From Desulfobacterales bacterium (GTDB lineage: Bacteria; Desulfobacterota; Desulfobacteria; Desulfobacterales; Desulfolunaceae): a stretch of DNA of 37,072 nt. The notes beneath the pieces are model-generated. The model searched no databases and was not told the origin of the DNA. It saw nothing but the letters and a program-made list of their open reading frames with translations. This document shows, in pieces, positions 4,895 to 34,817 of the stretch. The stretch covers positions 1 through 37,072 of the forward strand of contig JAKSCC010000293.1 of NCBI GenBank assembly GCA_022360815.1, read 5' to 3'. The position numbers and the translations under genes are program-made. Within the stretch, counting starts at the first letter, position 1. Each line of letters begins with the position of its first letter.

Positions 4895-4958
4895 GCGGAT
4901 TCGTCCTTTGTTTTGAGCGTTTTTGCGGGGTGCGAGGATCGTTTCGCACCGGGTCTCA

Positions 4959-5591: not shown

Positions 5592-5612
5592 GGTAAATCT
5601 CCATTTAACGAT

Positions 5613-7172: not shown

Positions 7173-7200
7173 GCTCTCCTCGAGTGGTTTAATTCATCTA

Positions 7201-7260
7201 AGTGGGGGCTGCCCTCATTTTTAGTTGCAGTAAATAAGGGGAGGGCGGCCCCGGGGCACT
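7201..7260 (-). other. GC-rich intercistronic hairpin overlapping the mttB stop
   Basis: On the minus-strand mRNA, AGTG-(CCCC bulge)-GGGGC-x-GCCCTC pairs with GAGGGC-x-GCCCC-CACT, about 15 bp with one mismatch and a loop of about 20 bases. No U-tract follows. It may shield the 3' end of the mttB part or cut transcription into the downstream transporter, giving unequal expression. Confidence 0.55.
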
Positions 7261-8680: not shown

Positions 8681-8736
8681 TTAGGTATCTCCTTACTTAT
8701 TTAGGTGTTGCCATAAAAGCATTTTGTATTTGGTGC

Positions 8737-8762
8737 TGCGACCGCTCTGCCGAGAGGCCGCA
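8737..8762 (-). other. Small intercistronic hairpin between BCCT 2 and mttB
   Basis: TGCG...CGCA outer and CTCT(CGGC)AGAG inner pairs form an imperfect stem just after the transporter stop codon, without a T-tract. It is probably an mRNA-processing or stability element. Confidence 0.3.
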
Positions 8763-8768
8763 GGGGGA

Positions 8769-10271: not shown

Positions 10272-10360
10272 TTGAAATCCCTTTTTAATCGAGCTCTTAC
10301 CTGTCCCCTTTAACTTGCGATACAAAGGGGGCGCTATTACGTGAAAGTCTGCCTTAATTG

Positions 10361-20392: not shown

Positions 20393-21412
20393 TCAGTGGG
20401 AGTAAAAGTCTTCTTCGGTGACTTTGTGACTGAAGACGCTGTAAGCCCACACCTGGTAGCCGATGACCAGAGGAATAAAGATCAGCACAACTGCCAGCAT
20501 GATCTTAAGGGTCAGGGGACTTGAGGATGCATTGAAGGCCGAAAGACTCCAGTCGTCACTGAGACTGGAGGGAAAGAGGTTGGGAAAGAGCCCAGCAATA
20601 CCGTAGAAGGTGGCTCCAAAAATGGTGGCACAGGAGGCGAACCACGCTTTGAAGAAGGCCTCTTTGGCCACATAAAAACGGATGGCCAGAAGGGCGGCCA
20701 CGGTGACGGCAATGATTATAAAAAGAGCGGGTTGTGCGAGGTAGTTGGCGTAGAGGCTGGTGGCAAACCAGCTGGCGCCAAGGAAGGTTACTGCCGCGAC
20801 AACCAGAACGGGCCAGAGTATTTTGGCGGTTCGTATGGTTCTGGCCTGGAGCTCTCCGTCTGTTTTGATGCAGAGCCACAGGGCCCCGTGCAGCGTAAAG
20901 AGGAGCACAAAGAGAACACCACCTGCAAGGCCGTAAGGGTTTAAGAGGGTGAAAAGATTTCCTTCATAAACGCCCTCTCCGTTGAAGGGGATTCCCATGA
21001 AGATGTTGGCAAAAGCCACACCAAAGAGTAAGGCTGGCGTAAAGCTGCCGATAAAGATGGTGGTGTCCCACACTCGAGTCCAGATGGGGCTGACGATTTG
21101 ATCGCGGAACTCAAAAGAGACCCCTCGAATGATCAGAGCAAAAAGAATCAGCATCAAGGGGGTGTAAAGAGAAGAGAACATCACCCCGTATACCGTGGGA
21201 AAGGCGGCAAAGGTTACACCTCCTGCCGTGAGAAGCCACACTTCGTTGCCATCCCACAAAGGGCCGATGGAGGCGATCATCTTTCGTTTATCGGTATCGT
21301 TTTTGGCAAGAAAGGGGTAAAGGGTCCCCACCCCGAAATCAAATCCATCGGTAATAAAAAAGATGGCCCAGAGAAGTCCCCAGAGAAAGAACCACGTTGA
21401 CTGCAAAACCAT
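20393..21412 (-). CDS. cydB: Cytochrome bd ubiquinol oxidase subunit II
   Basis: Polytopic membrane protein of 339 residues that pairs with CydA to reduce oxygen to water with quinol, giving oxygen protection in an anaerobe. The N-terminus has the family signature FITDGFDFGVGTLYPFL and then SIGPLWDGNEVWLLTAGGVTFAAFP. About eight to nine hydrophobic segments are present. It is slightly shorter than the E. coli subunit (379). The ATG follows GGGAGGATTTATAC. It is 60 bases after cydA in one operon. Whether the enzyme is a bd or a cyanide-insensitive type cannot be judged from subunit II. Confidence 0.95.
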   Translation of the reverse strand: MVLQSTWFFLWGLLWAIFFITDGFDFGVGTLYPFLAKNDTDKRKMIASIGPLWDGNEVWLLTAGGVTFAAFPTVYGVMFSSLYTPLMLILFALIIRGVSFEFRDQIVSPIWTRVWDTTIFIGSFTPALLFGVAFANIFMGIPFNGEGVYEGNLFTLLNPYGLAGGVLFVLLFTLHGALWLCIKTDGELQARTIRTAKILWPVLVVAAVTFLGASWFATSLYANYLAQPALFIIIAVTVAALLAIRFYVAKEAFFKAWFASCATIFGATFYGIAGLFPNLFPSSLSDDWSLSAFNASSSPLTLKIMLAVVLIFIPLVIGYQVWAYSVFSHKVTEEDFYSH

Positions 21413-21472
21413 GTATAAATCCTCCCTAAGTCGGTAAAGAGATCGAATGTTGTCAGGTGAAAACCGTTGAGG

Positions 21473-22783
21473 CTATGCAGAAGCGGCTTCAGGCCCTTTT
21501 TTCGCGTGCTTGATCATGAGCCAGAATCCCACAAAGCCCAGAAGTCCGTAGACCACTATAAAGCCGATCAGGCTTCCCAGAACCTGCGAAGAAGCTACCG
21601 GAGATGCCGCATCCGAGGTTTTCATCAGCCCGTAGACAATCCAAGGTTGCCTGCCTACTTCGGTGAGAACCCATCCGGCTTCAATGGTGAGAAGGGGAAG
21701 CGGGATGGCGAAAACCATGGCCGTCAGAAGCCTTTTGCTCTCGAGAAGTTTTTTCCGTTTCACAAAGGCCCAGATTATTAAGGCGATCATGAGGGTCGCA
21801 GAGCCGATCATGGTGCGGAATGAAAGGGCGGTGATCAAGACAGGAGGGCGTTCCTCTTTTGGAATATCATTTAAACCAACGATTTCGGCGTTGATGTCGT
21901 GCTTGCCCAAAAGGCTTAAGAGGCCAGGGATTTTTCCGAATTCAATGAGGTTGCCCCCATTTTTTTCATCGGGAATGGCGAAAATGAATGAAGGTGCCCG
22001 AGTGGTGGTTTCCCAGTGTGATTCCATGGCGGCCAGCTTGGCTGGCTGCTTTTCGGTGACGTTGATGCCGTGCATGTCGCCGGATATGGTGACCACAGCC
22101 GTGGAGATCACGCCGAAGATTAGGGCGAGTCTGAACGCGCGGGAGAAGAGTTCCACTTCGTTTTTTCTCAAAAGGTGCCAGGCGCTGATGCCCATCACCA
22201 CAAAAGCGCTGTACATGAAGGCGGCCGACAGGGTGTGCGAGATTTCAAGGAGGGCATATTTTTGTGTGATGACAGCCACGAAGTCGGTGAGTTCTGCACG
22301 GCCGTTTCGAAGGGTAAACCCGACGGGGTGCTGCATCCAGGCGTTGGCGATGAGAATCCAGACAGAGGAGAGGGAGCCTGCAATGGCGATAAGCCACATA
22401 ACAGTGGCGTGGGCTTTGGCTGAAAGTTTTTTCCAGCCAAAAATCCAGATGCCGATGAATGTGGACTCTAGAAAAAAAGCGGCGGTGGCCTCAATGGCCA
22501 GAAGAGATCCAAAGATATCGCCCACATACTCAGAGTAGCGAGACCAGTTGGTGCCAAACTGAAATTCCAGAGTGATGCCGGTTACCACCCCGAGCGCCAC
22601 GTTGATGAGAAAAATTTTTCCAAAAAATTTTGTCATGCGCAGCCAGGTTTCGTCTCCGGTTTTGGCATAGCGGGTCTCCATGATAGCCAGAAGCACCGAA
22701 AGGCCCAGGGTAAGGGGCACAAAAAGAAAGTGAAACATCGTTGCAGCAGCAAACTGCAGGCGAGAGAGTAGAACGACATCCAT
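21473..22783 (-). CDS. cydA: Cytochrome bd ubiquinol oxidase subunit I
   Basis: Haem-bearing catalytic subunit of 436 residues in the inner membrane. It begins LLSRLQFAAATMFHFLFVPLT, with the conserved His (haem b595 ligand region). It contains SGDMHGINVTEKQPAKLAAME (quinol-site region; shown as the family KxxPxKxAAxE pattern) and the diagnostic GRQPWIVYG near the C-terminus. The Q-loop is of the short type found outside Proteobacteria of the E. coli group. ATG 22783 follows AAGGAGGAATCC and was chosen over an earlier ATG at 22801 that precedes this site. It lies between a small zinc-ribbon gene upstream and cydB downstream. Confidence 0.95.
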   Translation of the reverse strand: MDVVLLSRLQFAAATMFHFLFVPLTLGLSVLLAIMETRYAKTGDETWLRMTKFFGKIFLINVALGVVTGITLEFQFGTNWSRYSEYVGDIFGSLLAIEATAAFFLESTFIGIWIFGWKKLSAKAHATVMWLIAIAGSLSSVWILIANAWMQHPVGFTLRNGRAELTDFVAVITQKYALLEISHTLSAAFMYSAFVVMGISAWHLLRKNEVELFSRAFRLALIFGVISTAVVTISGDMHGINVTEKQPAKLAAMESHWETTTRAPSFIFAIPDEKNGGNLIEFGKIPGLLSLLGKHDINAEIVGLNDIPKEERPPVLITALSFRTMIGSATLMIALIIWAFVKRKKLLESKRLLTAMVFAIPLPLLTIEAGWVLTEVGRQPWIVYGLMKTSDAASPVASSQVLGSLIGFIVVYGLLGFVGFWLMIKHAKKGPEAASA

Positions 22784-22878
22784 GGATTCCTCCTTAAACA
22801 TCCAGATTCAATATTCGAAATCATGAGGGGCAGCCCCTGACGCCTATCAAGGGTCTTTTTTTCTGGCTAAAAACCAGG

Positions 22879-23052
22879 TCAGGAGATCGCTCCTTTGATG
22901 TCGAGGGGCTCTTTGCACTGGGTGCAGAGATGGGTTTTTTCGACCTCATCGGAGAATATCTCGTTGGCGGTACCACACTTTTTACAGTGCACTTCAATGG
23001 GTTGAATGCTTTTGAACGGCTCGTGGCCGGGGCAGTGTTGCGTTGTGGTCAT
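22879..23052 (-). CDS. 57-residue zinc-ribbon protein at the head of the cyd operon
   Basis: A short gene with an excellent ribosome-binding site (AAGGAGGCCCC before ATG 23052). The product has CPGH near the N-terminus, then CKKC (23-26) and CTQC (43-46), the four cysteines of a zinc ribbon or rubredoxin-like knuckle, with charged segments between and no membrane helix. It ends about 95 bases before cydA on the same strand, so it is likely cotranscribed. Function unknown. It could be a metallochaperone, a redox-sensitive assembly factor or a small regulator for cytochrome bd. Confidence 0.75.
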   Translation of the reverse strand: MTTTQHCPGHEPFKSIQPIEVHCKKCGTANEIFSDEVEKTHLCTQCKEPLDIKGAIS

Positions 23053-23611
23053 GGGGCCTCCTTATAGACAGTGTTGTTGTAAGATAAAGCGGCTTGCGTG
23101 AACCATCAGGCAGTGTGCCAGTTGCTCCCGTTGCGTGATGCAATCAAGAGGGGCGAGCAATTCATAATAGTTGGGTGAAACATGGCCGGGAACCGGTTGC
23201 AGGGTATACCAGCAAAACATATGCCAGAATCAGATACGGGATGGGAAGGCGTCTCGCTATTCAGGGTGGATTCGTTTTAGATACAGGGAAATTCCCGCCT
23301 GATAGATGAAATCATACTGGTTTCTTTGGAGGTGTGCAAAGGGAAAGTCAAAGGTGAATGTGGAAGGGAGTCAATGGCACAAAGAAGGCCTTTATTTTTT
23401 GATATATATTGGAATATCTTACCTTTTTCCCTGTTTTGATGGGGTGGTGTCTGGAGACGCAACTGTCTCAAATGGATGTGAGACAAAAACAGATAACTTG
23501 GTTGTTGTCTTTGTAAGTCTATTTAAATCAAAATGTTAAAGCTTGTAATAAGAAGTAAAGTGAGTTTTTTTTCTGTGATGTATAGGCACAGAAGGAGGGA
23601 CAAGGGGTTTC

Positions 23612-23689
23612 ATGTCTCAACCACTATTTTCGGTGATACAGATGGGCGGACGATCAAAAAAATCGTACGAAAGTAAAAAAATCAAATGA
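23612..23689 (+). CDS. Possible small protein of 25 residues
   Basis: ATG 23612 is preceded by GGAGGGACAAGGGGTTTC, with a usable Shine-Dalgarno-like AAGGGG, and follows the hairpin at 23571-23593. The product would be polar at the start and strongly basic at the C-terminus (Lys/Arg/Ser-rich). No family is recognised. It could equally be a chance frame. Confidence 0.2.
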   Translation: MSQPLFSVIQMGGRSKKSYESKKIK

Positions 23690-23814
23690 GCATTAAATAC
23701 AACGGACTTATTTCTAATATGCCCTATTTATAGGATAAAATTTTCTGCCTATCTTGACTTCATAGTGTGAGCAAATGTATATTAAGTACTTGAGGATCGT
23801 GGCTTTGGAATAAA

Positions 23815-23830
23815 TGGCACGGTTCTTGTA
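23815..23830 (+). promoter_or_regulatory. Sigma-54-like promoter before the ferritin-like gene
   Basis: TGGCACGGTTCTTGTA matches the -24 element perfectly (TGGCACG) and the -12 element except that the invariant GC is GT. The start point would be near 23842, 80 bases before ATG 23923. The -12 mismatch makes activity doubtful. Confidence 0.4.
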
Positions 23831-23922
23831 ATTGTGAGTAAAGAAGTAGACCATGGCGTGGTGGCTGCCTTGGAGGGATTGGGCAGTGCGTTATCACTTC
23901 ATACAACCAAGGAGAATAGACG

Positions 23923-24396
23923 ATGGGTCTCGGTTTTAATGCAGACGAAATTTTTGAGATGGCAGAGCAGATTGAACGCAATGGCGCCAAATATTATAGG
24001 GAAGCAGCTGAAGCGGTAACCAACGAAGCCGATAAAAAGTTTCTTACTGAATTGGCTGAGATGGAAGATGATCACGAAGTGACATTTGGTGACCTTCGAA
24101 AAGGATTGACCGACGCCCAAAAAGAGCCCCTCACCTTTGACCCCGAAGGTGAGGCAACGCAGTATCTTAAGGCGCTGGCCGATACCCGTGTCTTCTTTGA
24201 AAAGGTGATGGATATCTCTTCCATAGAGGGGATTCTGAAAGGGGCCATCACGGCAGAGAAGGACTCCATCGTTTTCTATCTGGGCATGAAGGAGATGGTT
24301 TCCGAGACCCGTGGAAAAGAGCGTATCGATGCGATCATCAAAGAAGAGATGAAACATATCAAGCTTCTCTCCAATCGGCTTTCTGCCAAAGCCTAA
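23923..24396 (+). CDS. Ferritin-like diiron protein (rubrerythrin without rubredoxin domain)
   Basis: Four-helix-bundle protein of 157 residues. Candidate iron ligands are Glu in AEQIERNGAKYY, the ExxDDH segment EMEDDHE, Glu in ITAEKDSIVFY and the ExxxH segment EEMKHIKLL, a pattern of two E/ExxH pairs as in rubrerythrins. The C-terminal rubredoxin domain is absent, so it needs an external electron donor if it acts as a peroxidase; iron storage is an alternative. The ribosome-binding site is AAGGAG. It is a single-gene unit closed by a strong terminator and adjacent to cytochrome bd, which supports an oxidative-stress role. Confidence 0.85.
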   Translation: MGLGFNADEIFEMAEQIERNGAKYYREAAEAVTNEADKKFLTELAEMEDDHEVTFGDLRKGLTDAQKEPLTFDPEGEATQYLKALADTRVFFEKVMDISSIEGILKGAITAEKDSIVFYLGMKEMVSETRGKERIDAIIKEEMKHIKLLSNRLSAKA

Positions 24397-24447
24397 TTTT
24401 TGATAAAAGGTTTGGAGAAGACAGCGTTTCATTTGCCTTAATCCTCT

Positions 24448-24485
24448 CCTCTGTTCAGGCTGTGCGTCTGGGCAGAGGTTTTTTT
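24448..24485 (+). terminator. Terminator of the ferritin-like gene
   Basis: CCTCTGTTCAG (24448-24458) pairs with CTGGGCAGAGG (24468-24478), 11 bp including two G-T pairs, and is followed by T7 (24479-24485). Confidence 0.85.
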
Positions 24486-24856
24486 GTGGTTCTATTTTGC
24501 TTTTCCTTACAATATTAGGTTTTGCGTAATCTCCCTGTTTTTAGGAACATCTTCTTGAAATCATCGGTTATTTGGTTTAGTTTTTGTTGATATCTATCCT
24601 CGTGTGGCTACTTGATCCGGCACCACGTCACCCTCAATCAGAGTCCCACCCCAAGCACCCCGGCCGGACCCACAGCGTTACCCGTCTTTTCTCATTCATT
24701 AGTGATGGCACCGAAAAAATCAGTCGATTCGGTTTGGTTTGTTTTTGAGGCGAAGTTTGCCCTTAGGCAGGCGTTGGGCCTTGTGCCGTTTTTCTATGTT
24801 GTGGATGGAATGATACCGATGCTCCGTATGGGGCTTTCGGGTGAAGGAGGAGAGAG
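24486..24856. promoter_or_regulatory. Upstream region of the haoCA-like operon with a weak FNR/HcpR-type site
   Basis: No supported gene. TTGATATCTATCCT at 24587-24600 matches the FNR-type dyad TTGAT-N4-ATCAA in 8 of 10 positions and would suit a CRP/FNR-family activator, but it is about 255 bases before the first gene. No perfect TTGAC-N4-GTCAA site was found here. A frame ending at 24860 is discussed under rejected items. Confidence 0.3.
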
Positions 24857-25429
24857 ATGACCCGACCCAAGTGGTTGCAGGGGAAGACGCCCCTAAAAAT
24901 TCTGGCCTGGGGAGCGGGATTTGGGGTCTTCCTGACCGTGGTCATGGTTTTGGCCTCGGGTTTTATGATTGAATCCACCAACACGGATACCTTTTGCATT
25001 CGATGCCACTACATGTCTCCGTTTCGAGACGCATGGCGGGCTTCTCCCCATGGAGGAGATAATCCGCGGGGGGTGGTGGCACAGTGTGTGGACTGCCACC
25101 TGCCCCATGATGGATACATCCAGTATCTTTTGGTGAAGGCAAAAACCGGTATGAGTGATTATTATCACGATCTTTTTATCGATCCCTACTCCTTTGACTG
25201 GGCGGCGAACACAGAAGCAAATCGCCAGAAATTTACTTTCGACAGTGCCTGCAAGGCCTGTCATATGGATTTGACGCCACCGGGCATGCCACGGGGCGGT
25301 TTTTTGGCGCATCGTGCCAAGCTTCGGGGAGAGACGCAGAAGAGCTGCACCCAGTGTCACCCCCACGTGGGGCATGAAAATATGCTGGATATGGTGGATC
25401 GATACTTTGGTCGTGGTCAGGCCATGTGA
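24857..25429 (+). CDS. NapC/NrfH-family tetrahaem cytochrome c (HaoC-like)
   Basis: Membrane-anchored quinol-oxidising cytochrome of 190 residues. It has a short cytosolic N-terminus, one membrane helix (about 12-37), then a periplasmic domain with four CxxCH haem sites: CIRCH (47), CVDCH (77), CKACH (132) and CTQCH (164). Size and haem number fit the NapC/NirT/NrfH family. It would take electrons from the menaquinol pool and deliver them to the octahaem protein encoded 33 bases downstream, as proposed for HaoC with HaoA in Campylobacterota. The start follows AAGGAGGAGAGAG. Confidence 0.92.
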   Translation: MTRPKWLQGKTPLKILAWGAGFGVFLTVVMVLASGFMIESTNTDTFCIRCHYMSPFRDAWRASPHGGDNPRGVVAQCVDCHLPHDGYIQYLLVKAKTGMSDYYHDLFIDPYSFDWAANTEANRQKFTFDSACKACHMDLTPPGMPRGGFLAHRAKLRGETQKSCTQCHPHVGHENMLDMVDRYFGRGQAM

Positions 25430-25462
25430 AAAAAGAAGAGCACTTAATTCAAGGAGGCGTTC

Positions 25463-26812
25463 ATGCGTATGATCAGGCTATGGATGATGGTGCTGGTGGT
25501 GTGGGGGCTGGTGATGGGGGCGATGCCGGTTTCGGCAGAAAACGCCTACCCTGAACTGGCCACCAAAGAATTTAAAATTGTGCGAGGTTTCAGCCCGGAG
25601 GCGCTTAAGTGTATCGAGTGCCATTCGGCCAAAACTGCAGGTGTGGTGGAGGGCTGGAAGTTGGGGAAAATGGCCCATGCCGGAGTCTCCTGTTACGACT
25701 GCCATGCGGTGACCAAAAGGTCTCCCATGGCGTCTCAGTGCGAGGGGCTTAAAGGGACAGATACCTATATTTCGCCCATGGTCTCTTCGGCAACTTGCAG
25801 TCGCTGCCATCCGGTGGAGGTGGAGCAATTTCTCCGCAGCGGTCACGCCAAGTTGGCGAGTGCACCGGTGGTTGAGAATAAGAAATTTCTCAAACTTATG
25901 TATCACTATGAGGGCGCAGAGTTTATCGGCAATAAAATAGGCTCCTTTTCGAACCGAGCGGCCCGCTCGGGTGGGTGTCAGATGTGCCATGGTACCCAGG
26001 TGGAGCTTGGGGCAGACAACAAGCCCATCAAAGAGACCTGGCCCGGTGGTGTGGGAACCCGCTATCCAGACGGTTCCGTTGGTAATTGTACGGTGTGTCA
26101 CACGCGGCATCAGTTTTCCATTGCTGAAGCGAGAAAGCCTGAGGCGTGTGCCAGTTGCCACCTGGGACCGGATCATCCCAATATAGAGATCTACCACGAG
26201 AGCAAGCACGGTCAGATGTTCCTGGCCCATGGAGAGGAGTGGGAGTGGGATAGTGCCCCCGATACTTGGGAGCCCGGAGACTACACGGCCCCCACCTGTG
26301 CGACCTGCCACATGAGTGGTATTGGTGAGTTGGCCACCACCCACAACATCAACGAGCGGCTTAAGTGGGATCTGGTCCACGCTCGAAGTGAGATTCGAAG
26401 CGGGGTTCGCGGTGACGGTATGAAAGGTGAGAAGCTGATGAAAAAGGTGTGCGCCAACTGCCATGGCTCATCCCATATTCAAGCACAGCGAGACACCTTG
26501 GACTCCACGGTGGAACTCTACAATTTGTACTGGGATAACGCCGTGAAGATGAAAAAGATGCTGGCGGAAAAGAAGCTCCTAAAAGATGACCCCTGGAAAG
26601 ATGGTTTTCAGGAGCTGATGTACTATCTCTGGCACCATGCAGGACGAAGGGCCAGGCATGGCGCGGCCATGGGTGGTCCAGACTACTCTCACTGGCACGG
26701 CTTCTTCCAGATTTTTCAGATCTACAAAGATATGGAAGATCTCTATGAGATGCGTTTGAAAAATGGAAAGATTGAGGCTTTAAGCCCTGTGATGAGTACC
26801 GGTCCCATTTGA
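25463..26812 (+). CDS. Octahaem cytochrome c of the hydroxylamine oxidoreductase family (HaoA-like)
   Basis: Periplasmic protein of 449 residues with a Sec signal peptide cleaved near VSA-EN (about 25). Eight CxxCH motifs start at residues 50, 77, 112, 172, 209, 229, 279 and 330, the number and rough spacing of HAO/reverse-HAO proteins. The C-terminal helix region has [11 protein letters not shown] and [10 protein letters not shown], a conserved patch of this family. In nitrifiers a tyrosine cross-links to haem P460; reductive members lack the cross-link. Which type this is cannot be decided without alignment. With the NapC-type donor next door, electron flow toward nitrite or hydroxylamine reduction is more likely than oxidation. 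Upstream site: AAGGAGG. Confidence 0.9.
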
Positions 26813-27027
26813 TCGCAACCCCTTTTTTTTGGTGGCTGCGCAAAAAGTCAGGGAGGCTTAGCGTCCCACAGCACTTGAGGTTTTACCATCGCTGGATGGT
26901 TCCATGTTGTGGGCGTTGTGCCGAAACCTTGGCTTTTACGTCGTGATCACTATTTAAGCAAGAGCGGCAAAAGGGGCGGCGCCTGCGGGTGTTGCCCCTT
27001 TTGACTGTAGCGGGGCACACGAAAAGA
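26813..27027. other. Spacer between convergent haoA-like and hcpR-like genes
   Basis: Contains the terminator listed next and a small dyad CCATCGCTGGATGG near 26887-26900. No gene seen. Confidence 0.4.
26968..27003. terminator. Bidirectional hairpin between convergent genes
   Basis: CAAAAGGGGC (26968-26977) pairs perfectly with GCCCCTTTTG (26994-27003), 10 bp with a 16-base GC-rich loop. The T4 is in the stem and no long T-tract follows, so termination would be modest. Confidence 0.55.
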
Positions 27028-27714
27028 TTAAAGCTTCCCGTTTTCGGCCAGCTCTTCGAGGCCTTCATAGTCCAGAAGGGTGATGCGCCTGCCTGAAACA
27101 GAGATAAGCCCCTCTGAGGTCATGCGGGATTGAATGCGTGAAAGGGTTTCGGGAATGGTGCCCAGAAGGCTTGCCAGTTGTCCTTTGGAGATGGTGAGCT
27201 CAACCTCTTCTCTGTTGTTTTGCTCTCGGCTGAGAAAAAGAAGATGCCCGGCAATGCGGCCCGGAACCTCTTTGAGTGAGAGGTTTTCAATTTGAACGGT
27301 AAATTGCTTGAGCCTTTTCGATAGTACCGCAAGAAGTTTCATGGCAAGGCCCGGTTCTTTGGCGATAAGTCTGGTAAATGCCTCCCGTGGAAAGAAGAGC
27401 AGGGCACTTTTGGCCAGAATGGTGGCATTGGCTGGAAAGGGCATACCTGCAAAAACCGCCACTTCACCGATGGGCTCTCCGGGTCCAAAAATATGAAGAA
27501 TTTGCTCCTTGCCTTCTGGCGAGGTTTTGTAAATTTTGGCCTTTCCCTCTGCCACGATATAGAATCCATCTCCCGGATCTCCCTCTGAAAAGACAAGTTC
27601 TCCTTTGCGATAGCTTTTTCTGACCGCCAGGCCTGCCAGCATTTCAATGTCGTGGGCTTCAAGCCCCTGAAAGAGGGGGACTGAAGCCAAAAGGGTATGG
27701 ACTTCCCGGGCCAT
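27028..27714 (-). CDS. hcpR: CRP/FNR-family regulator, HcpR-like
   Basis: Transcription factor of 228 residues. The N-terminal cyclic-nucleotide-like beta-barrel (about 10-125) has GELVFSEGDPGDGFYIVAEG and GPGEPIGEVAVFAG. A long dimer helix (about 110-150) and a winged helix-turn-helix with LTISKGQLASLLGTIPETLSRI follow. The protein has no cysteine at all, so it cannot hold an FNR-type Fe-S cluster; HcpR proteins studied elsewhere sense NO through haem. It is divergent from hcp with a TTGAC-N4-GTCAA dyad between them, the arrangement described for HcpR in Desulfovibrio and relatives. It likely activates hcp and perhaps the haoCA-like pair. Confidence 0.85.
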   Translation of the reverse strand: MAREVHTLLASVPLFQGLEAHDIEMLAGLAVRKSYRKGELVFSEGDPGDGFYIVAEGKAKIYKTSPEGKEQILHIFGPGEPIGEVAVFAGMPFPANATILAKSALLFFPREAFTRLIAKEPGLAMKLLAVLSKRLKQFTVQIENLSLKEVPGRIAGHLLFLSREQNNREEVELTISKGQLASLLGTIPETLSRIQSRMTSEGLISVSGRRITLLDYEGLEELAENGKL

Positions 27715-27799
27715 GGGGCTCTCCTTGGGTAAGACGTTTATCTCTTTTGTTTTTTGGCGAAAAAGCGAAACGAAAATTTTTGCATTTTTACATCTCGTT

Positions 27800-27813
27800 T
27801 TGACCTAAGTCAA
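27800..27813 (+). promoter_or_regulatory. HcpR/FNR-type operator TTGACCTAAGTCAA
   Basis: A perfect dyad TTGAC-CTAA-GTCAA in the hcpR-hcp intergenic region. Its centre (27806.5) is 41.5 bp before a predicted hcp start at about 27848 with a -10-like TAATGT at 27836-27841. This is the class II activator position typical of CRP/FNR proteins. Confidence 0.8.
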
Positions 27814-27835
27814 GGCGAAGGAAGGTGAGGTGGCG

Positions 27836-27841
27836 TAATGT
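27836..27841 (+). promoter_or_regulatory. Predicted -10 element of hcp
   Basis: TAATGT, with no good -35 element, as expected for a promoter that depends on an activator bound at -41.5. The 5' leader to ATG 27953 would be about 105 bases. Confidence 0.5.
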
Positions 27842-27952
27842 GATGGCAACAAAAGAGAGAAGGCCGGGATGGCGCATAAGAGGCACACCCGAGCGACTCT
27901 GTCGCAATGACCACCTTATGAAACCGCAAGTCAATTTTTAAGGAGAATCGAT

Positions 27953-29566
27953 ATGTTTTGTTATCAGTGTGAGCAGACTGCCAAAGGAACCGGTTGTATC
28001 AACATAGGGGTATGCGGCAAACAGCCCGATGTGGCAGCCCTTCAGGACCTTTTGATTCATGCGGTTAAGGGGCTTTCCCTCTATGCCATCAAAGCTCGAG
28101 AGCAAGGGTACCGTGATGAAGAGATGGATCTCTTTGTGTGTGAAGCGGTTTTTTCAACCCTGACCAATGTCGATTTTGACCCCGCCCGTTTTGAAGAGCT
28201 CATTGCCCGCTGCGAAACTTACATTCAATCATTGAAGGTGAAGACCGGTACCAATCTTTTGGGGCCCAATTGCTCCTGCGCAGGCAAAAGTCGCGAGGAG
28301 TTGGTGACTTTGGGAGAGTCTGTGGGCATCATGGCCGATCCCAATCTCAATGAAGATATTCGCTCCTTGCGCGAGCTTCTGATCTACGGCATCAAAGGCC
28401 TGGCAGCCTATGCCGACCATGCCGCTATTCTCGGCCACAAAGATCCCATGGTGTTCGATTTTGTTTACGATGGCCTGGCAGCCACCCTGGACGATGACTT
28501 GGGTGTCAACGATCTGGTGGGGCTCTGCCTCAAGTGCGGTGAGGTGAACATTCGCGCCATGGAGCTTCTGGATGCTGGAAACACCGGCACCTATGGCCAC
28601 CCTGAGCCCACCGTGGTTCCTCTGGGTGCCAAAGCGGGCAAGGCGATTTTGGTGTCAGGCCATGACCTGAAAGACCTTGAGCTTCTTTTGGAGCAGACCG
28701 AAGGCAAGGGGATCAACATCTACACCCATGGCGAGATGTTGCCCTGTCATGGGTATCCCGGCTTGAAGAAGTACAGCCACTTCTACGGTCACTACGGTAC
28801 CGCCTGGCAGAATCAGGCCAAAGAGTTTGATGCTTTTCCTGGTGCCATTCTTATGACCACCAACTGCATTCAAAAGCCCAGAGATTCATACAACGATCGC
28901 ATCTTTACCACGGGTTTGGTGGGGTGGCCCGGTGTGGCCCATGTGGGGGACGACAAAGATTTTACTCCGGTGATTGAAAAGGCCCTGGCCTGTGAAGGAT
29001 TTGCAGAAGACACCAATAAAGGTACGGTTATGGCCGGATTTGCACGAAACGCAGTTCTGGGTGTGGCCGACAAGGTGATCGATGCCGTCAAAGGCGGTGC
29101 TATCAAACACTTCTTCCTCGTAGGCGGCTGCGACGGTGCCAAGCCCGGGCGCAACTACTACACCGAACTGGTGGAGGAAATCCCCTCAGATTGCGTGATT
29201 CTAACCCTGGCTTGCGGCAAGTTCCGTTTCTTTGATAAGCAGTTGGGCGATATTGGTGGGATTCCGCGCCTTTTGGATGTGGGGCAGTGCAACGACGCGT
29301 ACTCAGCCGTAAAGATTGCCACGGCACTGGCCGATGCCTTTGATTGTGGTGTGAACGATTTGCCCCTTTCGATTATTCTCTCCTGGTATGAGCAGAAGGC
29401 GTGCGTGGTGCTTCTTTCTCTGCTGCATCTGGGCATCACCAATATCAAGCTTGGCCCCACACTGCCCGCATTCATCTCGCCCAATGTGTTGAATGTTCTG
29501 GTTGAGAACTTTAATATAGGACCCATCGGTACCGTGGAAGAGGATCTGAAAGCAGCACTGGGATAG
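27953..29566 (+). CDS. hcp: Hybrid cluster protein (hydroxylamine/NO reductase)
   Basis: Cytosolic Fe-S enzyme of 537 residues. The N-terminal cluster motif is C3-x2-C6-x8-C15-x5-C21, the closely spaced form found in strict anaerobes. Later segments around the hybrid cluster include GPNCSCAG, HGEMLPCHGYP, TTNCIQKP, VGGCDGAKPGRNYY, TLACGKFRF, VGQCNDAYSAVKIA and WYEQKACVVLLSLLHLG, all family hallmarks with the expected cysteines, histidine and glutamates. Known activities are reduction of hydroxylamine to ammonium and of NO to N2O, with protein S-nitrosylation in some bacteria. The ribosome-binding site is AAGGAGAATCGAT. It is controlled by the HcpR-type site upstream and is followed by a Cys-rich protein and a ferredoxin that may be its electron donor. 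Confidence 0.97.
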   Translation: MFCYQCEQTAKGTGCINIGVCGKQPDVAALQDLLIHAVKGLSLYAIKAREQGYRDEEMDLFVCEAVFSTLTNVDFDPARFEELIARCETYIQSLKVKTGTNLLGPNCSCAGKSREELVTLGESVGIMADPNLNEDIRSLRELLIYGIKGLAAYADHAAILGHKDPMVFDFVYDGLAATLDDDLGVNDLVGLCLKCGEVNIRAMELLDAGNTGTYGHPEPTVVPLGAKAGKAILVSGHDLKDLELLLEQTEGKGINIYTHGEMLPCHGYPGLKKYSHFYGHYGTAWQNQAKEFDAFPGAILMTTNCIQKPRDSYNDRIFTTGLVGWPGVAHVGDDKDFTPVIEKALACEGFAEDTNKGTVMAGFARNAVLGVADKVIDAVKGGAIKHFFLVGGCDGAKPGRNYYTELVEEIPSDCVILTLACGKFRFFDKQLGDIGGIPRLLDVGQCNDAYSAVKIATALADAFDCGVNDLPLSIILSWYEQKACVVLLSLLHLGITNIKLGPTLPAFISPNVLNVLVENFNIGPIGTVEEDLKAALG

Positions 29567-29575
29567 TGCAGTCAA

Positions 29576-29618
29576 TCTGTCATGGCACAAAAGGTGCAGC
29601 TTTTTGTGTCATGACAGA
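29576..29618 (+). other. 17-bp hairpin after hcp
   Basis: TCTGTCATGGCACAAAA (29576-29592) pairs with TTTTGTGTCATGACAGA (29602-29618), one G-T pair, loop of 9. It starts 9 bases after the hcp stop. No T-tract follows, so it may protect the hcp mRNA 3' end or attenuate transcription into the next genes. Confidence 0.75.
29583..29598 (+). promoter_or_regulatory. Candidate sigma-54 promoter inside the post-hcp hairpin
   Basis: TGGCACAAAAGGTGCA has the full -24 element TGGCAC, the invariant GG/GC at exact spacing, and GTGCA at -12 (consensus TTGCA). The start point would be near 29609, about 50 bases before ATG 29658. The overlap with the hairpin could mean a chance match. Confidence 0.45.
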
Positions 29619-29657
29619 AATATCAGACTTTCATGTTCCGAAGTAAGGGGGCGGAAC

Positions 29658-30239
29658 ATGGGTGACAGGGGGTGTGCCATGAAATGTCCAGGGCAAGATA
29701 CACAGTTTTGGGGCTATGGGTCGATTTTTGAATCCACATGCCCCGATTGCGGAACAACGGTGGAGTTTTTCAAGGACGACACCATGCGCACGTGCTCGGG
29801 TTGTGGCAAAAGATTGGCCAACCCGAAGCTGGACTTTGGTTGCGCCTCCTATTGCCAGTTTGCAGATGCCTGTCTGGGCAGCCTGCCGCCGGAGCTTCTG
29901 GCAGAGAAGCGAAATCTTATCAAAGAGCGAGTGGCCGTAGAGGTAAAAAGGCGATGCGGCAAAGATTTTTCTCGAATTGGACGAGCCGCTTCTCTTGCTC
30001 GAATTTCAGAGAAGATGGTTCAAGAGAGGGCCAACGTGGATATGGCTTCTCTGGTATGTGCCGCCACCTTATCGGTGCTCACCGTGGAGGATGCTCAGGA
30101 CGTGCTTCAGGGTATAGGTGCTCCCAAGGGGTTGGTCGAAGAGGTTTTGGGCCTTCTCAAAGGTGAGCAACAAGGCGATGGTGCCGCTCTTCTGAAGGAA
30201 GCACAAGCCCGTCTGGATAAGGAAACGTTTAAATCGTAA
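29658..30239 (+). CDS. Zinc-finger protein with a degenerate HD-type domain, hcp-linked
   Basis: About 193 residues. The N-terminal half is a cysteine-rich module: CPGQDTQFW, then CPDCG, VEFFKDD, CSGCGKR and NPKLDFGCASYCQFADACLG, giving two CxxC zinc-ribbon pairs and a further Cys group. The same module is fused to HD phosphohydrolase domains in many anaerobes. Here the C-terminal helices (about 100-175: ERANVDMASLVCAATLSVL, GIGAPKGLVEEVLGLLK) resemble the HD scaffold but no HD dipeptide or metal-binding His is present, so the hydrolase appears inactive. ATG 29658 follows AAGGGGGCGGAAC; ATG 29679 is an alternative. It lies between hcp and its ferredoxin, suggesting a role in Hcp maturation, sensing or electron supply. 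Confidence 0.75.
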   Translation: MGDRGCAMKCPGQDTQFWGYGSIFESTCPDCGTTVEFFKDDTMRTCSGCGKRLANPKLDFGCASYCQFADACLGSLPPELLAEKRNLIKERVAVEVKRRCGKDFSRIGRAASLARISEKMVQERANVDMASLVCAATLSVLTVEDAQDVLQGIGAPKGLVEEVLGLLKGEQQGDGAALLKEAQARLDKETFKS

Positions 30240-30299
30240 GAAACAACAACGCTGTATGCTGTGTGGTGCAGCGACTGCATAGATGAGAGATGAGAGGAA

Positions 30300-31058
30300 A
30301 TGACCATGAAAGTAATCCGAAAAATTATTGAAATTGACGAGGAGAAGTGTACCGGATGTGGACAGTGTGTTCCCGCCTGTGCCGAAGGGGCCATTGAGAT
30401 TGTGGATGGCAAGGCCAAAGTGATCAAGGATCTCCTTTGCGACGGGCTGGGTGCCTGCATCGGGGATTGCCCTGAAGATGCTCTGCGGCTTGTGGAGCGT
30501 GAGACCGACCCCTACGATGAAGAGGCGGTTCACAAGCACTTGGCCGAGCGCGCTGAAAAAGAGAAGGCCGATGAGGGCACCCCCCAATCGCCTGCCATGG
30601 GGTGCGGATGCCCCTCATCCAATATTATGAGTTTTAGCGCACCCTCGCCTTGTCAAAGTGCCAATGTGCCCAAAACGCAAACTTCAAGTGTCTCAGCTTT
30701 GAGCCACTGGCCGGTACAGATTCGTCTCATTCCTCCTACAGCACCGTTTTTGAAAGAGGCCGACCTTCTTGTGACAGCAGACTGTGTGCCTGTTTCATAT
30801 CCAGATCTTCACACCACCTTTTTGAAGGGGCGAAAAGTGATGCTGGGATGCCCCAAATTCGACGATGCCCAGAGTTATATCGATAAGTTTCGGGATATAT
30901 TCTCAGTGGCCAATATCAAAAGCGTCACCGTTATTTTGATGGAGGTTCCCTGCTGCAGCGGACTTCCCATGATTGTGAAAAAGGGACTTGAGCTCTCCGG
31001 TAAAAACGTACCGGTGGAAGAGGTGGTGATCTCCCTTGATGGAAAGATTAAAAAGTAG
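30300..31058 (+). CDS. Hcp-associated ferredoxin with C-terminal conserved domain
   Basis: Fe-S protein of 252 residues. The ferredoxin part (1-65) has a complete CTGCGQC-x3-C motif (Cys17, 20, 23, 27), but the second motif is C47-DGLGA-C53-IGD-C57, lacking the second cysteine (Leu50), so the second cluster may be [3Fe-4S] or use Asp48. A linker with MGCGCPSS follows, then a domain of about 110 residues with VTADCVPVSYPDLH, MLGCPKFDD and VPCCSGLP, whose cysteines may bind a further cluster. Homologues are regularly encoded next to hcp in Desulfovibrio-like and clostridial genomes, and electron donation to Hcp is the usual inference. The start is preceded by GAGAGGAA. Confidence 0.85.
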   Translation: MTMKVIRKIIEIDEEKCTGCGQCVPACAEGAIEIVDGKAKVIKDLLCDGLGACIGDCPEDALRLVERETDPYDEEAVHKHLAERAEKEKADEGTPQSPAMGCGCPSSNIMSFSAPSPCQSANVPKTQTSSVSALSHWPVQIRLIPPTAPFLKEADLLVTADCVPVSYPDLHTTFLKGRKVMLGCPKFDDAQSYIDKFRDIFSVANIKSVTVILMEVPCCSGLPMIVKKGLELSGKNVPVEEVVISLDGKIKK

Positions 31059-31404: not shown

Positions 31405-33369
31405 ATGGAAAAATTGGACAGGAAGTCTGAAAAACGTCTGAAGATTAAAGAGGTTACCCAGTGTGAATCCACGGGCCGAATGCTTGAGAAGGCTCGAAAT
31501 GACGGTGTGACCCTTGCTTTTGATCGGGCCGCCGAGATGAAGGCGTGTCCGATTGGTGCAGAGTCTGCGTGCTGCAAGATGTGTTACATGGGGCCGTGTC
31601 GGCTTAACGCAAGGGATCCCTACAGCAAAGTGGGGGTGTGTGGGGCCACCATTGATACGATTCAATCGCGGAACTTAGGGCGCATGGTGGCTGGCGGATC
31701 TGCCGCTCACAATGATCACGGTATGGCGGTTCTTGAGCTTTTTCGAGGGGTGGCCAAAGGGACCATCCTTGATTATGCCAGCAAAGATCCTTACAAGCTG
31801 GAGGCCCTTTGCCAGGAGTTGGGGCTACCCACCGAGGGTTTTTCAATCCAGGAGATGGCTCTGGCCCTAGCCGATGAGCTGGAGAAGACCTACACCCAGA
31901 CCGAAGGCGAAATCCCCTTTGCCAAGCGTGTGCCAGAAAAGACCCTTGAGACCTGGCGAAAGCTCGACATCGTTCCCCGTGGTGCCATGATTGAAGTGAT
32001 GGGGATCATGAGCCGTACCCATATGGGCTGTGATCAGGATTACAGGAATCTTACCAAGGCCATCAACAAAACAGCCTTGGCTGATGGCTGGGGTGGATCC
32101 ATGGTGGCCACGGAGTTGGGGGATGTTCTGTTTGGTACCCCCTCGCCCGTTCAAGCGGATGTGAATTTTGGGGTGCTCAAAGAGGACCATGTCAATATTA
32201 TTGTCCACGGCCACGAACCCAATCTTTTTGAGTCTATGCTGGCTTCTGTAAACGACCCTTCCCTGGTAAAAATTGCAAGGGAGAAAGGGGCCAAGGGAAT
32301 CAACCTGGTGGGCATGTGCTGCTCGGGGGCCGAGATGTTGGGACGTCACGGTGTGCCTCATGCCGGCAATTTTATGAGTACCGAAGCGGTGCTCGTGACC
32401 GGTGCGGTGGATGCCATGGCTGTGGATATCCAATGTATTCAGCAGGCCCTTGTCAGCACCGCAGACTGCTACAAAACCCATCTGATCACCACAAACCCCC
32501 GTTGTCATATTGAAGGAGCCCGCCATGTGGAGTTTGAAGAACACACCCCTCGGGAGTGCACCGATGAAATTGTCACCCTTGCCATTGCGCGTTTTGCGGA
32601 TCGCGGGGTTAAGGTGGAGATTCCTCAGATTGTGAACAAGGGGGTCCACGGTTTTTCCCATGAGTACATCAACTACATGCTGGGCGGTTCTTTTCGAGGC
32701 AGTTATGCGCCGTTAAATGAGAATATCATCAACGGTCGCATTCGCGGTGTGGCCGGTGTGGTGGGGTGTGTTAACCCCAGAGTCAAGCAGGACTGGGTGC
32801 ATGTGGAGTTGGTCAAAGAGCTGATCCGAAACGACGTTTTGGTGATCCAGACGGGGTGCTCTCAAATTGCCCTTGCCAAGGCAGGGTTTTTGGTGCCTGA
32901 GGCGGCGCATCTTGCAGGTCCGGGACTTCGAGAAGTGTGTGAAGCTGTTGGTATGCCCCCGGTTTTGGGACTGGGATCTTGTGTGGACAACACTCGGATT
33001 CTCACGGCCGCCACCGCTATGGTGAATCAGGGCGGGTTGGGAGAATCCATCGCTGATCTTCCAGTGGCGGGTGCCGCCCCAGAGTGGATGAGCGAGAAAG
33101 CGGTTGCCATTGGGCAGTATTTCGTGGCTTCTGGGGTATACACGGTGTTTGGTGTGGGGTTTCCTACGGTAAAGGATACCAAGTTTCACGATCTGTTTTT
33201 TGGTGGTTTGGAAGAGCAGGGTCTCGGCAAATGGGGCACCACCAGAGATCCCCATGAGATGGCACAGATGATGATTGCCCATATCGACAAGAAGCGTAAA
33301 GAGTTGGGTATTGATAGAGCGCGGGAGCGTGTCCTGACAGACATGGCTTCTCGGCGTGAGCTGGTGTAA
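31405..33369 (+). CDS. cooS: Ni-containing CO dehydrogenase catalytic subunit
   Basis: Monofunctional-type carbon monoxide dehydrogenase of 654 residues, catalysing CO + H2O to CO2 + 2 electrons. The N-terminal cysteines C48, C56 (D cluster) and C57, C60, C65, C79 (B cluster) have exactly the spacing of the structurally known enzyme (39, 47; 48, 51, 56, 70). C-cluster ligands are visible as VHGHEP (His about 268), GMCCSGAEM (about 305), DIQCIQQ, VGCVNP, TGCSQIAL and LGSCVDN. The ribosome-binding site is GGGGAGAGACGA. No cooC (Ni insertion ATPase), cooF ferredoxin or acetyl-CoA synthase subunit is adjacent. The ferredoxin-containing proteins on either side may serve as redox partners. Confidence 0.97.
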   Translation: MEKLDRKSEKRLKIKEVTQCESTGRMLEKARNDGVTLAFDRAAEMKACPIGAESACCKMCYMGPCRLNARDPYSKVGVCGATIDTIQSRNLGRMVAGGSAAHNDHGMAVLELFRGVAKGTILDYASKDPYKLEALCQELGLPTEGFSIQEMALALADELEKTYTQTEGEIPFAKRVPEKTLETWRKLDIVPRGAMIEVMGIMSRTHMGCDQDYRNLTKAINKTALADGWGGSMVATELGDVLFGTPSPVQADVNFGVLKEDHVNIIVHGHEPNLFESMLASVNDPSLVKIAREKGAKGINLVGMCCSGAEMLGRHGVPHAGNFMSTEAVLVTGAVDAMAVDIQCIQQALVSTADCYKTHLITTNPRCHIEGARHVEFEEHTPRECTDEIVTLAIARFADRGVKVEIPQIVNKGVHGFSHEYINYMLGGSFRGSYAPLNENIINGRIRGVAGVVGCVNPRVKQDWVHVELVKELIRNDVLVIQTGCSQIALAKAGFLVPEAAHLAGPGLREVCEAVGMPPVLGLGSCVDNTRILTAATAMVNQGGLGESIADLPVAGAAPEWMSEKAVAIGQYFVASGVYTVFGVGFPTVKDTKFHDLFFGGLEEQGLGKWGTTRDPHEMAQMMIAHIDKKRKELGIDRARERVLTDMASRRELV

Positions 33370-33856: not shown

Positions 33857-33974
33857 GCATTGGCGACGTCTCTGCAATAAAAATGCTGTCGTTCCAAAAT
33901 AAAAAGATAAAGAGGTGTATCCAGGTGGCCGTGCCCCTGGCAGAGTAGACGATTTTGATGGAGCAGTGAGTTGT

Positions 33975-34817
33975 ATGAAGTGGACAGATGAAGCGGAAGC
34001 CGCCGTTAAAAAAGTTCCCTTTTTTGTCAGGAAAAAGGTGAAGGCTCGTGTTGAAGAGGAGGCTCGGGAGAGGGGTCTTGATACCATCACCCTACGGGAG
34101 GTGAATCGCACTCGGGCTCGATTTTTAAATAAGATGGAAGAGGAGGTGACTGGGTATCAGGTGGAAGCCTGTTTTGGAGATGGCGGGTGCCCTCGAAAAG
34201 CCAATGGAAGCCGAGGCCTTCAGCAAAGGGTCGGACAGCTTTTGGCTGAAGAGGATATTCTTGGGTTTCTCAAGAGCCAGGTGGATGGAAAGTTGAAGTT
34301 TCATCATGAGTTTCGCGTGGCATTTGCCGATTGCCCCAACGCCTGTTCCCAGCCTCAGATTCGGGATATCTGTATTATCGGGGCGGTTATTCCAGAGACC
34401 ACCGAGGCCTTGTGCTCGGAGTGCGGAGCTTGCGCGGATGCGTGTGCTGAAGAGGCAATCTCCTTTAAGGGGGGGCTTCCGTCCATTGAGTGGGAGAAGT
34501 GCTTGGTGTGCGGCAGGTGCATTCGGGCATGTGAAACCGGCACCCTTTCAGGAGAGAAAAAGGGGTATCGGGTGCTCTTGGGCGGTCGTTTGGGTCGCCA
34601 TCCTCGTCTTGCTATGGAACTTCCCGGAATTTATGATGAAGACGCTGTGTTTGATATTGTGAGCCATTGTGTGAGCACCTATAAAGCGCGCAGCAAAAAG
34701 GGAGAGCGCTTTTCCCATCTGTTTAACGAAGAGGATTACAAAGAGGTGGCGGCTCTGTTTCTGCCGCGTTCCATTGTGGATGAAAATTCAAAGAAAGGGA
34801 GAGTGCAGAATGTCTGA
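33975..34817 (+). CDS. PCP_red / siroheme-type / 2x[4Fe-4S] ferredoxin protein (sulfite-nitrite reductase-like)
   Basis: About 280 residues with three parts. Residues 1-45 (WTDEAEAAVKKVPFFVRKKV) match the small PCP_red helical domain seen in light-independent protochlorophyllide reductases and some Fe-S proteins. Next is a nitrite/sulfite-reductase-like region with C-x5-C (CFGDGGC) and DCPNAC, the C-x5-C-xn-C-x3-C pattern that holds a [4Fe-4S]-siroheme couple. Then come two ferredoxin motifs, CSECGACADAC and CLVCGRCIRAC. It lacks a full two-repeat SNiR core, so it belongs to the small or dissimilatory-like group; activity on sulfite, nitrite or another substrate is open. ATG 33975 precedes the PCP_red domain directly; an upstream start at 33915 is weaker. 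It overlaps the next gene by 8 bases. Confidence 0.82.
   Translation: MKWTDEAEAAVKKVPFFVRKKVKARVEEEARERGLDTITLREVNRTRARFLNKMEEEVTGYQVEACFGDGGCPRKANGSRGLQQRVGQLLAEEDILGFLKSQVDGKLKFHHEFRVAFADCPNACSQPQIRDICIIGAVIPETTEALCSECGACADACAEEAISFKGGLPSIEWEKCLVCGRCIRACETGTLSGEKKGYRVLLGGRLGRHPRLAMELPGIYDEDAVFDIVSHCVSTYKARSKKGERFSHLFNEEDYKEVAALFLPRSIVDENSKKGRVQNV

Follow-up and report, generated by a model that had tools for sequence, protein, structure and literature searches.

A haoCA–hcpR–hcp gene block in a Desulfobacterales genome points to a candidate octahaem nitrite reductase in place of NrfHA

We analysed a 37,072-nucleotide stretch of DNA from a Desulfobacterales bacterium (the window; GenBank assembly GCA_022360815.1, contig JAKSCC010000293.1, positions 1–37,072), in which a pair of multihaem cytochrome genes, haoC and haoA, lies beside genes for the regulator HcpR and the hybrid cluster protein Hcp. 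On the + strand, haoC (24857–25429) encodes a 190-aa tetrahaem protein of the NapC/NrfH family, a quinol dehydrogenase with 4 CxxCH motifs, a NapC/NirT-family match (Pfam Cytochrom_NNT 4.9e-27) and a likely membrane anchor, and haoA (25463–26812) encodes an octahaem HAO-family protein (449 aa, 8 CxxCH, Multi-haem_cyto 2.5e-32), probably a nitrite reductase. The − strand gene hcpR (27028–27714) encodes a CRP/FNR-family regulator of the HcpR1 type with the recognition helix IPETLSR, and three further + strand genes encode Hcp, an NO/hydroxylamine reductase that scores over the cut-off of the NCBIfam hydroxylamine reductase model (hcp, 27953–29566), its companion, a Cys-rich, zinc-ribbon-like protein (cysP, ~29679–30239), and a 2x[4Fe-4S] dicluster ferredoxin-type protein (frdX, 30300–31058), which takes its name and its role as probable Hcp electron donor from PMC1274295. 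All six genes of the row described in the original prediction are present, each at the coordinates first given.

The gene order cydBA-rbr-haoCA-hcpR-hcp-cysP-frdX-cooS-NIR is kept in all five other genomes of the genus Desulfoluna (haoC in 4/5), and by this synteny the block is more than a chance association. HaoA relatives from named genomes place the window within or beside Desulfoluna; one of them (L067, 'Desulfoluna sp.', 83% identity) has an identical block order. The assembly, a metagenome-assembled genome, comprises 360 contigs and 4.22 Mb (completeness 93.1%, contamination 8.36%), and it encodes a second HaoA (74% identity) with its own HaoC on contig C132.

HaoA was compared with other octahaem proteins by tree, alignment and structure. 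In a tree of 65 octahaems, it fell in a Desulfobacterota-type clade (support 100/99) that is sister to a clade with the HaoA proteins of Sulfurovum and Hydrogenimonas, to which it is 46% identical; support for the two clades jointly was 100/100, and the true HAOs formed a separate long branch far from the window protein. The original prediction would have been undercut by placement with oxidative octahaems; no grouping with oxidative HAO occurred in this tree, which held neither ONR nor OTR and represented the Campylobacterota by Sulfurovum and Hydrogenimonas alone. In an alignment of 123 octahaems, the column of the HAO cross-linking residue Tyr467 holds Tyr in 7/7 HAO rows and in no other row. 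The window protein has His410 there (codon 26690–26692, +), as do the rows of clades A and A2; clade B has Trp, and the rest have His, Trp, Gln, Val or Thr. Tyr467 of 1fgj was located by counting along the printed alignment (within WTYTEGW), and HAO rows were set by 58–68% identity to a piece of 1fgj or, for L175, by a full-length match to 6m0p/1fgj. Asp237-His238 (codons 26171–26176, +) is equivalent to HAO Asp267-His268, which we take to act beside the catalytic haem, and this pair is conserved in 118/123 aligned octahaems.

The best PDB matches by profile were, in order, 4qo5, 6h5l and HAO. A fold comparison with a middling-quality model of HaoA likewise pointed to the HAO class, with the same three among the best. 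Entry 4qo5 was deposited as a hypothetical multiheme protein (presumably the Ignicoccus octahaem cytochrome), and 6h5l is the Kuenenia reducing HAO-like complex Kustc0457/Kustc0458; both are 21–29% identical to HaoA in fold alignments and, as printed in the profile alignments, share with HaoA the lack of Tyr at the cross-linking position, although 4qo5 has Asp-Val in place of Asp-His. A 2025 paper ties His at the key site to the reductive state (PMC12758564). Because it has 8 CxxCH motifs, the Asp-His pair, His410 rather than the cross-linking Tyr, and a clade grouped with Campylobacterota proteins, HaoA belongs, by sequence, to the reductive, epsilon-Hao-like kind. The likeness to the HaoCA of Campylobacterota and to the reverse hydroxylamine:ubiquinone reductase module (reverse-HURM) of Nautilia profundicola extends to a NapC/NrfH-type tetrahaem partner, an Hcp in the genome and no NrfA, with the protein comparison made against the Sulfurovum and Hydrogenimonas representatives; the window system differs in its subclade, in that no NapA was found, and in having Hcp beside an HcpR operator with haoCA outside it.

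A search of this genome for nrfA, proposed with the original prediction, gave no match to PF02335, the NrfA family. We then scored HaoA (E ≤ 1e-60) and NrfA (E < 1e-100) in 58 genomes, this one and its relatives. HaoA was found in 39 and NrfA in 10, with both in only three (Fisher p 0.010; 0.008 with the genus excluded). NrfA was present in 0/27 genomes with a verified haoC-haoA pair compared to 10/31 of the others (p 0.001; 0.003 with the genus collapsed), where the 31 include eight HaoA genomes that could not be checked for haoC because of contig ends or a stretch not fetched. All three genomes with both proteins (G001, G010 and G051) lack an intact haoC-haoA pair. Two of them, G010 and G051, encode a nine-haem fusion of ~735 aa and have no haoC. 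In the third, the single-contig Desulfoluna-genus genome G001, a deletion between rbr and haoA (locus L046) runs from about codon 19 of haoC through the HaoA signal peptide and fuses the first 18 haoC codons into haoA past that peptide. G001 is also the sole genus genome (1/6) with a strong NrfA match, and it has nrfHA; this natural loss of haoC offers a ready comparison within the genus. PF02335 scored over its Pfam cut-off in 15/58 genomes, but five weak matches were not scored as NrfA because these proteins have eight (four proteins) or six (one) CxxCH motifs and no CxxCK, compared to 4 CxxCH and 1 CxxCK in each of two NrfA proteins read alongside.

By this pattern HaoCA seems to substitute for NrfHA, and the haoCA product is probably a nitrite reductase working in place of NrfA. 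Both are two-gene modules of a tetrahaem quinol dehydrogenase and a multihaem reductase, both have hcp as a neighbour in some genomes (nrfHA in two relatives), and each tends to occur where the other does not; they differ in that NrfA is a five-haem protein of another family, and in the distribution of HcpR operators described below. The absence of an NrfA match, the grouping of a reductive-type HaoA with Campylobacterota proteins and the replacement pattern together support the proposal of nitrogen-oxide reduction independent of NrfA.

The survey also brought up other multihaem proteins. A distinct eight-haem protein of 411–427 aa with weak PF02335 similarity is encoded at loci L211, L232, L233 and L234 (G006, G003, G031 and G043, one of them a genus genome), and four relatives encode the nine-haem HaoA-like fusion of ~735 aa, unaccompanied by haoC (L157:10549-12741, L217:4380-6599, L219:5721-7937 and L220:138-2339).

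We next consider the association with hcp. Of the 52 genomes that do not belong to the genus, four have haoA no more than 5 kb from hcp (5 pairs compared to 0.135 expected), and two, G007 and G032, have nrfA equally near hcp; neither of these two has any HaoA match. Same-strand runs of haoC-haoA-hcp occur in G026 and G016, and one of hcp-nrfH-nrfA in G032. Genes of the HcpR module precede haoCA at L088 and L108 (without hcp at L108), and at L048 haoC and an hcpR homologue are divergently oriented. Thus hcp–haoA linkage is enriched but is not the rule: only 6/80 named loci, many of the 80 being truncated by contig ends, have hcp no more than 10 kb from haoA. NrfA reaches ammonium without Hcp, so the parallel linkage of hcp to haoCA and to nrfHA fits a clean-up role; the linkage is compatible with clean-up of leaked NO and hydroxylamine as well as with a hand-off of hydroxylamine from HaoA to Hcp.

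The hand-off is the core of a pathway like that described for Nautilia (PMC3701875), in which HaoCA would mainly release free hydroxylamine and Hcp would be the obligatory second step to ammonium. The parts of such a pathway (Hao, a NapC/NrfH-type partner and Hcp) are all present and adjacent here, together with the hcp-type ferredoxin protein; the runs in G026 and G016 read in one direction, the Cys/His/Glu set of Hcp is complete, and Nautilia cells are reported to convert hydroxylamine to ammonium (PMC3701875). The Nautilia pathway also includes an Fe-S protein of the NAMH_1302 type; the ferredoxin present here is FrdX. Ammonifiers that lack NrfA but encode HaoA homologues and Hcp are already on record (PMC5276818). 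Several results count the other way, and we regard an obligatory hydroxylamine hand-off as unlikely: the hcp genes of G007 and G032 are linked to nrfHA, few of the named haoCA loci have hcp nearby, haoCA and hcp have no operator in common, a periplasmic nitrate reductase to feed the pathway was not found (NapA in 0/6 genus genomes, NarG below cut-off here), and Hcp has a well-supported role in NO reduction (PMC10949509, PMC11633192). For Geobacteraceae, one of these sources proposes that NO formed by NrfA is reduced by Hcp-Hcr (PMC11633192).

The regulatory sites separate the two halves of the block. The motif TTGACCTAAGTCAA at 27800–27813, in the hcpR–hcp intergenic region, is a predicted HcpR operator by exact match; it is the only exact match in the window and also lies upstream of hcp in 5/5 genus relatives. 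The regulator has the features of the HcpR1 type (Ser or Pro at CRP position 180, Glu at 181 and an operator TTGACnnnnGTCAA near hcp), a class assigned from the operator and from specificity residues (Pro-Glu in the helix IPETLSR) aligned by eye. Pro-Glu in delta-proteobacterial HcpR is reported to pair with the operator wyTTGACnnnnGTCAArw (PMC1274295). We surveyed 114 loci for this operator (the window, L042–L061, L067–L146 and L153–L168, minus the duplicates L067, L117 and L082), omitting genes with less than 200 bp upstream. It was found exactly upstream of hcp in 9/18 cases (12/18 if one mismatch is tolerated; the genus itself supplies 6 of the 9 exact sites), upstream of nrfH in 3/11, and upstream of haoC in 0/91; with up to one mismatch allowed, haoC had 2/91 compared to 1/91 for a control pattern. 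In the window, the region upstream of haoC (24397–24857) has no site with fewer than three mismatches. This distribution indicates that HcpR is the probable regulator of hcp in this genome and of nrfHA in certain relatives, but not, via this operator, of haoCA, and we rejected HcpR control of haoCA on the 0/91 count. The proposed common nitrosative-stress regulator of all these genes therefore did not hold up, since the operator is at hcp only and the regulator gene is convergent with haoA.

A single haoCA–hcp operon was likewise rejected, because the oppositely oriented hcpR separates the two, convergent with haoA and divergent from hcp. Upstream of haoC, a terminator-like hairpin with a 13-pair stem followed by TTTTTTT (24448–24478, +) follows the rubrerythrin gene, and haoCA is probably a transcription unit of its own that starts downstream of it; terminator-like sites in the region overall numbered 8, compared to 8.7 in shuffled sequences, which is no excess. 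Between the convergent haoA and hcpR, an inverted repeat spotted by eye (AAAAGGGGC...GCCCCTTTT, 26969–27002) is possibly a bidirectional terminator; it is outside the list from the terminator scan because its loop exceeds the limit of that scan.

Across the whole genome, exact HcpR sites number eight, compared to one for the reversed pattern: three upstream of hcp genes, one upstream of an HdrC/HdrB-like pair, one upstream of a NapH-like Fe-S protein, one ~160 bp upstream of a 276-aa open reading frame without family assignment, and two within open reading frames. By these exact sites haoCA is outside the HcpR regulon of this genome. That regulon resembles the HcpR1 regulon of delta-proteobacteria as set out by Rodionov in 2005 (PMC1274295) in the regulator divergent from hcp, the hcp-frdX neighbourhood, the Pro-Glu of the recognition helix and the operator; compared to that account, it may add a twin-arginine translocation (Tat)-type Hcp, the HdrC/HdrB-like pair and the NapH-like protein.

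The window Hcp has the complete set of conserved Cys, His and Glu positions, which we take to be the cluster ligands. CysP gave only zinc-ribbon matches below the Pfam cut-offs, and its relative at L108 has an added HD domain (over cut-off). The Tat-type Hcp proteins carry an export signal (SRR[GNS]FIKK) and are encoded in this genome (L065:11289-12115, contig C163, where the contig end cuts the gene) and in two relatives (L230:10776-12539 and L231:8170-9921). They account for 3/26 distinct Hcp N-termini, which is not a rate because the set is non-random (eight were picked for long frames or as relatives of interest). An HcpR operator lies 105–121 bp upstream of all three genes (exact, exact and with one mismatch), and the Cys/His/Glu set is complete in both full-length proteins.

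A different kind of regulator adjoins haoCA in relatives. We tallied the families of 79 proteins nearest clade A haoCA at loci L068–L120 (78 of 125 picked proteins, plus the frdX product of L088 in place of a spurious open reading frame); the commonest were Alginate_exp porins (11), the Tll0287-like (DUF3365) domain (11) and histidine kinase domains (10). A kinase with the haem-c domain sCache_heme (PF11845; Tll0287-like, DUF3365) lies within 6 kb of haoA at 22/88 clade A/A2 loci, compared to 0/15 clade B loci and 0/11 nrfA loci, by a profile that was built from six kinases beside haoCA and finds those six by construction. Of 27 whole genomes (this one and 26 hand-picked, not random, from the 80 named loci), 12 have such a kinase no farther than 6 kb from haoA, compared to 0.175 expected from its density by the Pfam model, with nearness taken from the kinase-profile search and listed places and with kinship ignored. 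Examples are the C132 copy in this genome and the haoCA of Desulfuromusa kysingii, with response regulators of the OmpR and NtrC types, respectively; D. kysingii (L085) has no NrfA match over cut-off. Signalling proteins with sCache_heme, the same Pfam domain, are reported to have NO-sensor properties, from measurements on one protein with slow NO release, in a 2026 preprint (PMC12889525) whose main text links them to no octahaem HaoCA and mentions neither hydroxylamine nor nitrite. As a separate observation, an Alginate_exp-type outer-membrane porin gene adjoins clade A haoCA (11/79 neighbours; for example, L072:2181-3650).

This kinase neighbourhood bears on the substrate. Sulfur compounds, sulfite and tetrathionate among them, have been put forward as substrates that HAO-family proteins reduce in Tharpellota and related lineages (PMC9213671), and HaoA is indeed common in sulfate-reducer relatives (39/58 genomes at the threshold above). 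We consider a sulfur substrate for HaoCA improbable, because haoCA in many relatives adjoins kinases of an NO-binding family, is linked to hcp and HcpR, and shows a replacement pattern with NrfHA; moreover, the 79 nearest neighbours gave 89 families, and the 25 of these that were listed include no dedicated sulfur-reduction family. The same kinases (22/88 clade A/A2 loci) and the adjoining HcpR module of the window would also suit a periplasmic scavenger whose main substrate is NO or hydroxylamine rather than nitrite. NrfA also reduces NO and hydroxylamine, but exchange with NrfHA indicates nitrite, and we place little weight on a pure scavenger. Oxidative hydroxylamine dehydrogenase activity, the sense in which HAO found alongside HCP was taken in the sister genus Desulfofaba (PMC10116758), is highly improbable and was rejected for HaoA on His410 at the Tyr467 column, with the separate clade and the NrfH-type partner also against it; in its favour are the Pfam and NCBIfam matches to HAO/HDH-type models, which are far under the HDH cut-off (64.7 vs 900 bits).

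From these observations (the genes, the HcpR operator, the clade of HaoA and its His in place of Tyr, the replacement pattern and the linkage), we lean, with confidence somewhat better than even, towards HaoCA as a nitrite reductase of the periplasm that is fed by quinol, fills the role of NrfHA, serves defence in this genome, and is controlled separately from the HcpR-Hcp clean-up. HaoC would draw electrons from menaquinol and hand them to HaoA, whose catalytic haem would reduce nitrite, and probably also NO and hydroxylamine, towards ammonium; lacking the Tyr cross-link, HaoA would run reductively. NO and hydroxylamine that escape would be cleared by Hcp with electrons from FrdX, after HcpR has switched on hcp through the 27800–27813 operator. 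Control of haoCA would be separate from the HcpR operon, and in relatives the periplasmic haem-c sensor kinase often paired with it may supply the signal. The original prediction had offered either a dedicated route or detoxification. NapA was found in 0/6 genus genomes and 4/58 genomes overall, and NarG gave only weak matches in this genome, none over cut-off, so nitrite would have to come from outside; defence against nitrite from neighbours is therefore likelier than nitrate respiration, and of the two offers detoxification is the one we would keep.

Several points weigh against this reading. The Fisher split on verified pairs was chosen after the data were seen, following the plain HaoA/NrfA test, and the replacement and linkage statistics ignore phylogeny. 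Three of the five genomes with weak PF02335 proteins belong to the 27 verified-pair genomes. Of 26 named HaoA-bearing genomes outside the 58, one (G063, Desulforhopalus sp.) has HaoCA plus a strong NrfA match, so the exclusion between HaoCA and NrfHA is not absolute. The contamination of the assembly casts some doubt on gene absences and on the origin of contig C132, and it is only the C132 copy of haoCA (L047) that has an adjoining sCache_heme kinase in this genome; the window copy has none within 6 kb. Most named haoCA loci show no nearby hcp, and the HcpR operator, exact at none of the 91 haoC genes, gives no support for joint action of the haoCA and hcp halves.

Octahaems of the HAO family in sulfate reducers have been labelled hydroxylamine dehydrogenase in genome papers and elsewhere suggested to act on sulfur, and Tyr-less HAO and hcp are reported as abundant mat genes (PMC8940962). 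Replacement of NrfHA, together with linkage to hcp and to NO-binding-family kinases, makes a testable case for nitrogen-oxide substrates; if it is right, nrfA surveys may miss much nitrite-reducing capacity in anoxic sediments. The portions of the literature that our searches reached hold no statement of the HaoCA/NrfHA exchange or of the sCache_heme–haoCA link. More speculatively, and on balance doubtfully, clade A HaoCA could be a widespread, unrecognised replacement of NrfHA in Desulfobacterota, often under an NO-sensing haem-Cache kinase, and together with Tat-type Hcp under HcpR sites it could allow nitrite, NO and hydroxylamine to be cleared wholly in the periplasm.

Other genes of the window were noted in passing. 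Genes for a cytochrome bd oxidase (cydAB) and rubrerythrin (20393–24396) adjoin haoCA in 5/5 other genus genomes, an oxygen-defence neighbourhood. Directly 3′ of frdX, also in 5/5 genus genomes, lies cooS (31405–33369), which encodes the catalytic subunit of an anaerobic CO dehydrogenase (over the NCBIfam cut-off). The protein encoded at 33915–34817 has an unusual mix of a PCP_red domain, an NIR_SIR-like domain and ferredoxin motifs, and its homologues are also near haoCA at L075, L103 and L156. Farther upstream, the region 4094–10325 is a probable glycine betaine/methylamine demethylation cluster, with an MTTB methyltransferase, pterin-binding and B12-binding proteins and two BCCT transporters.

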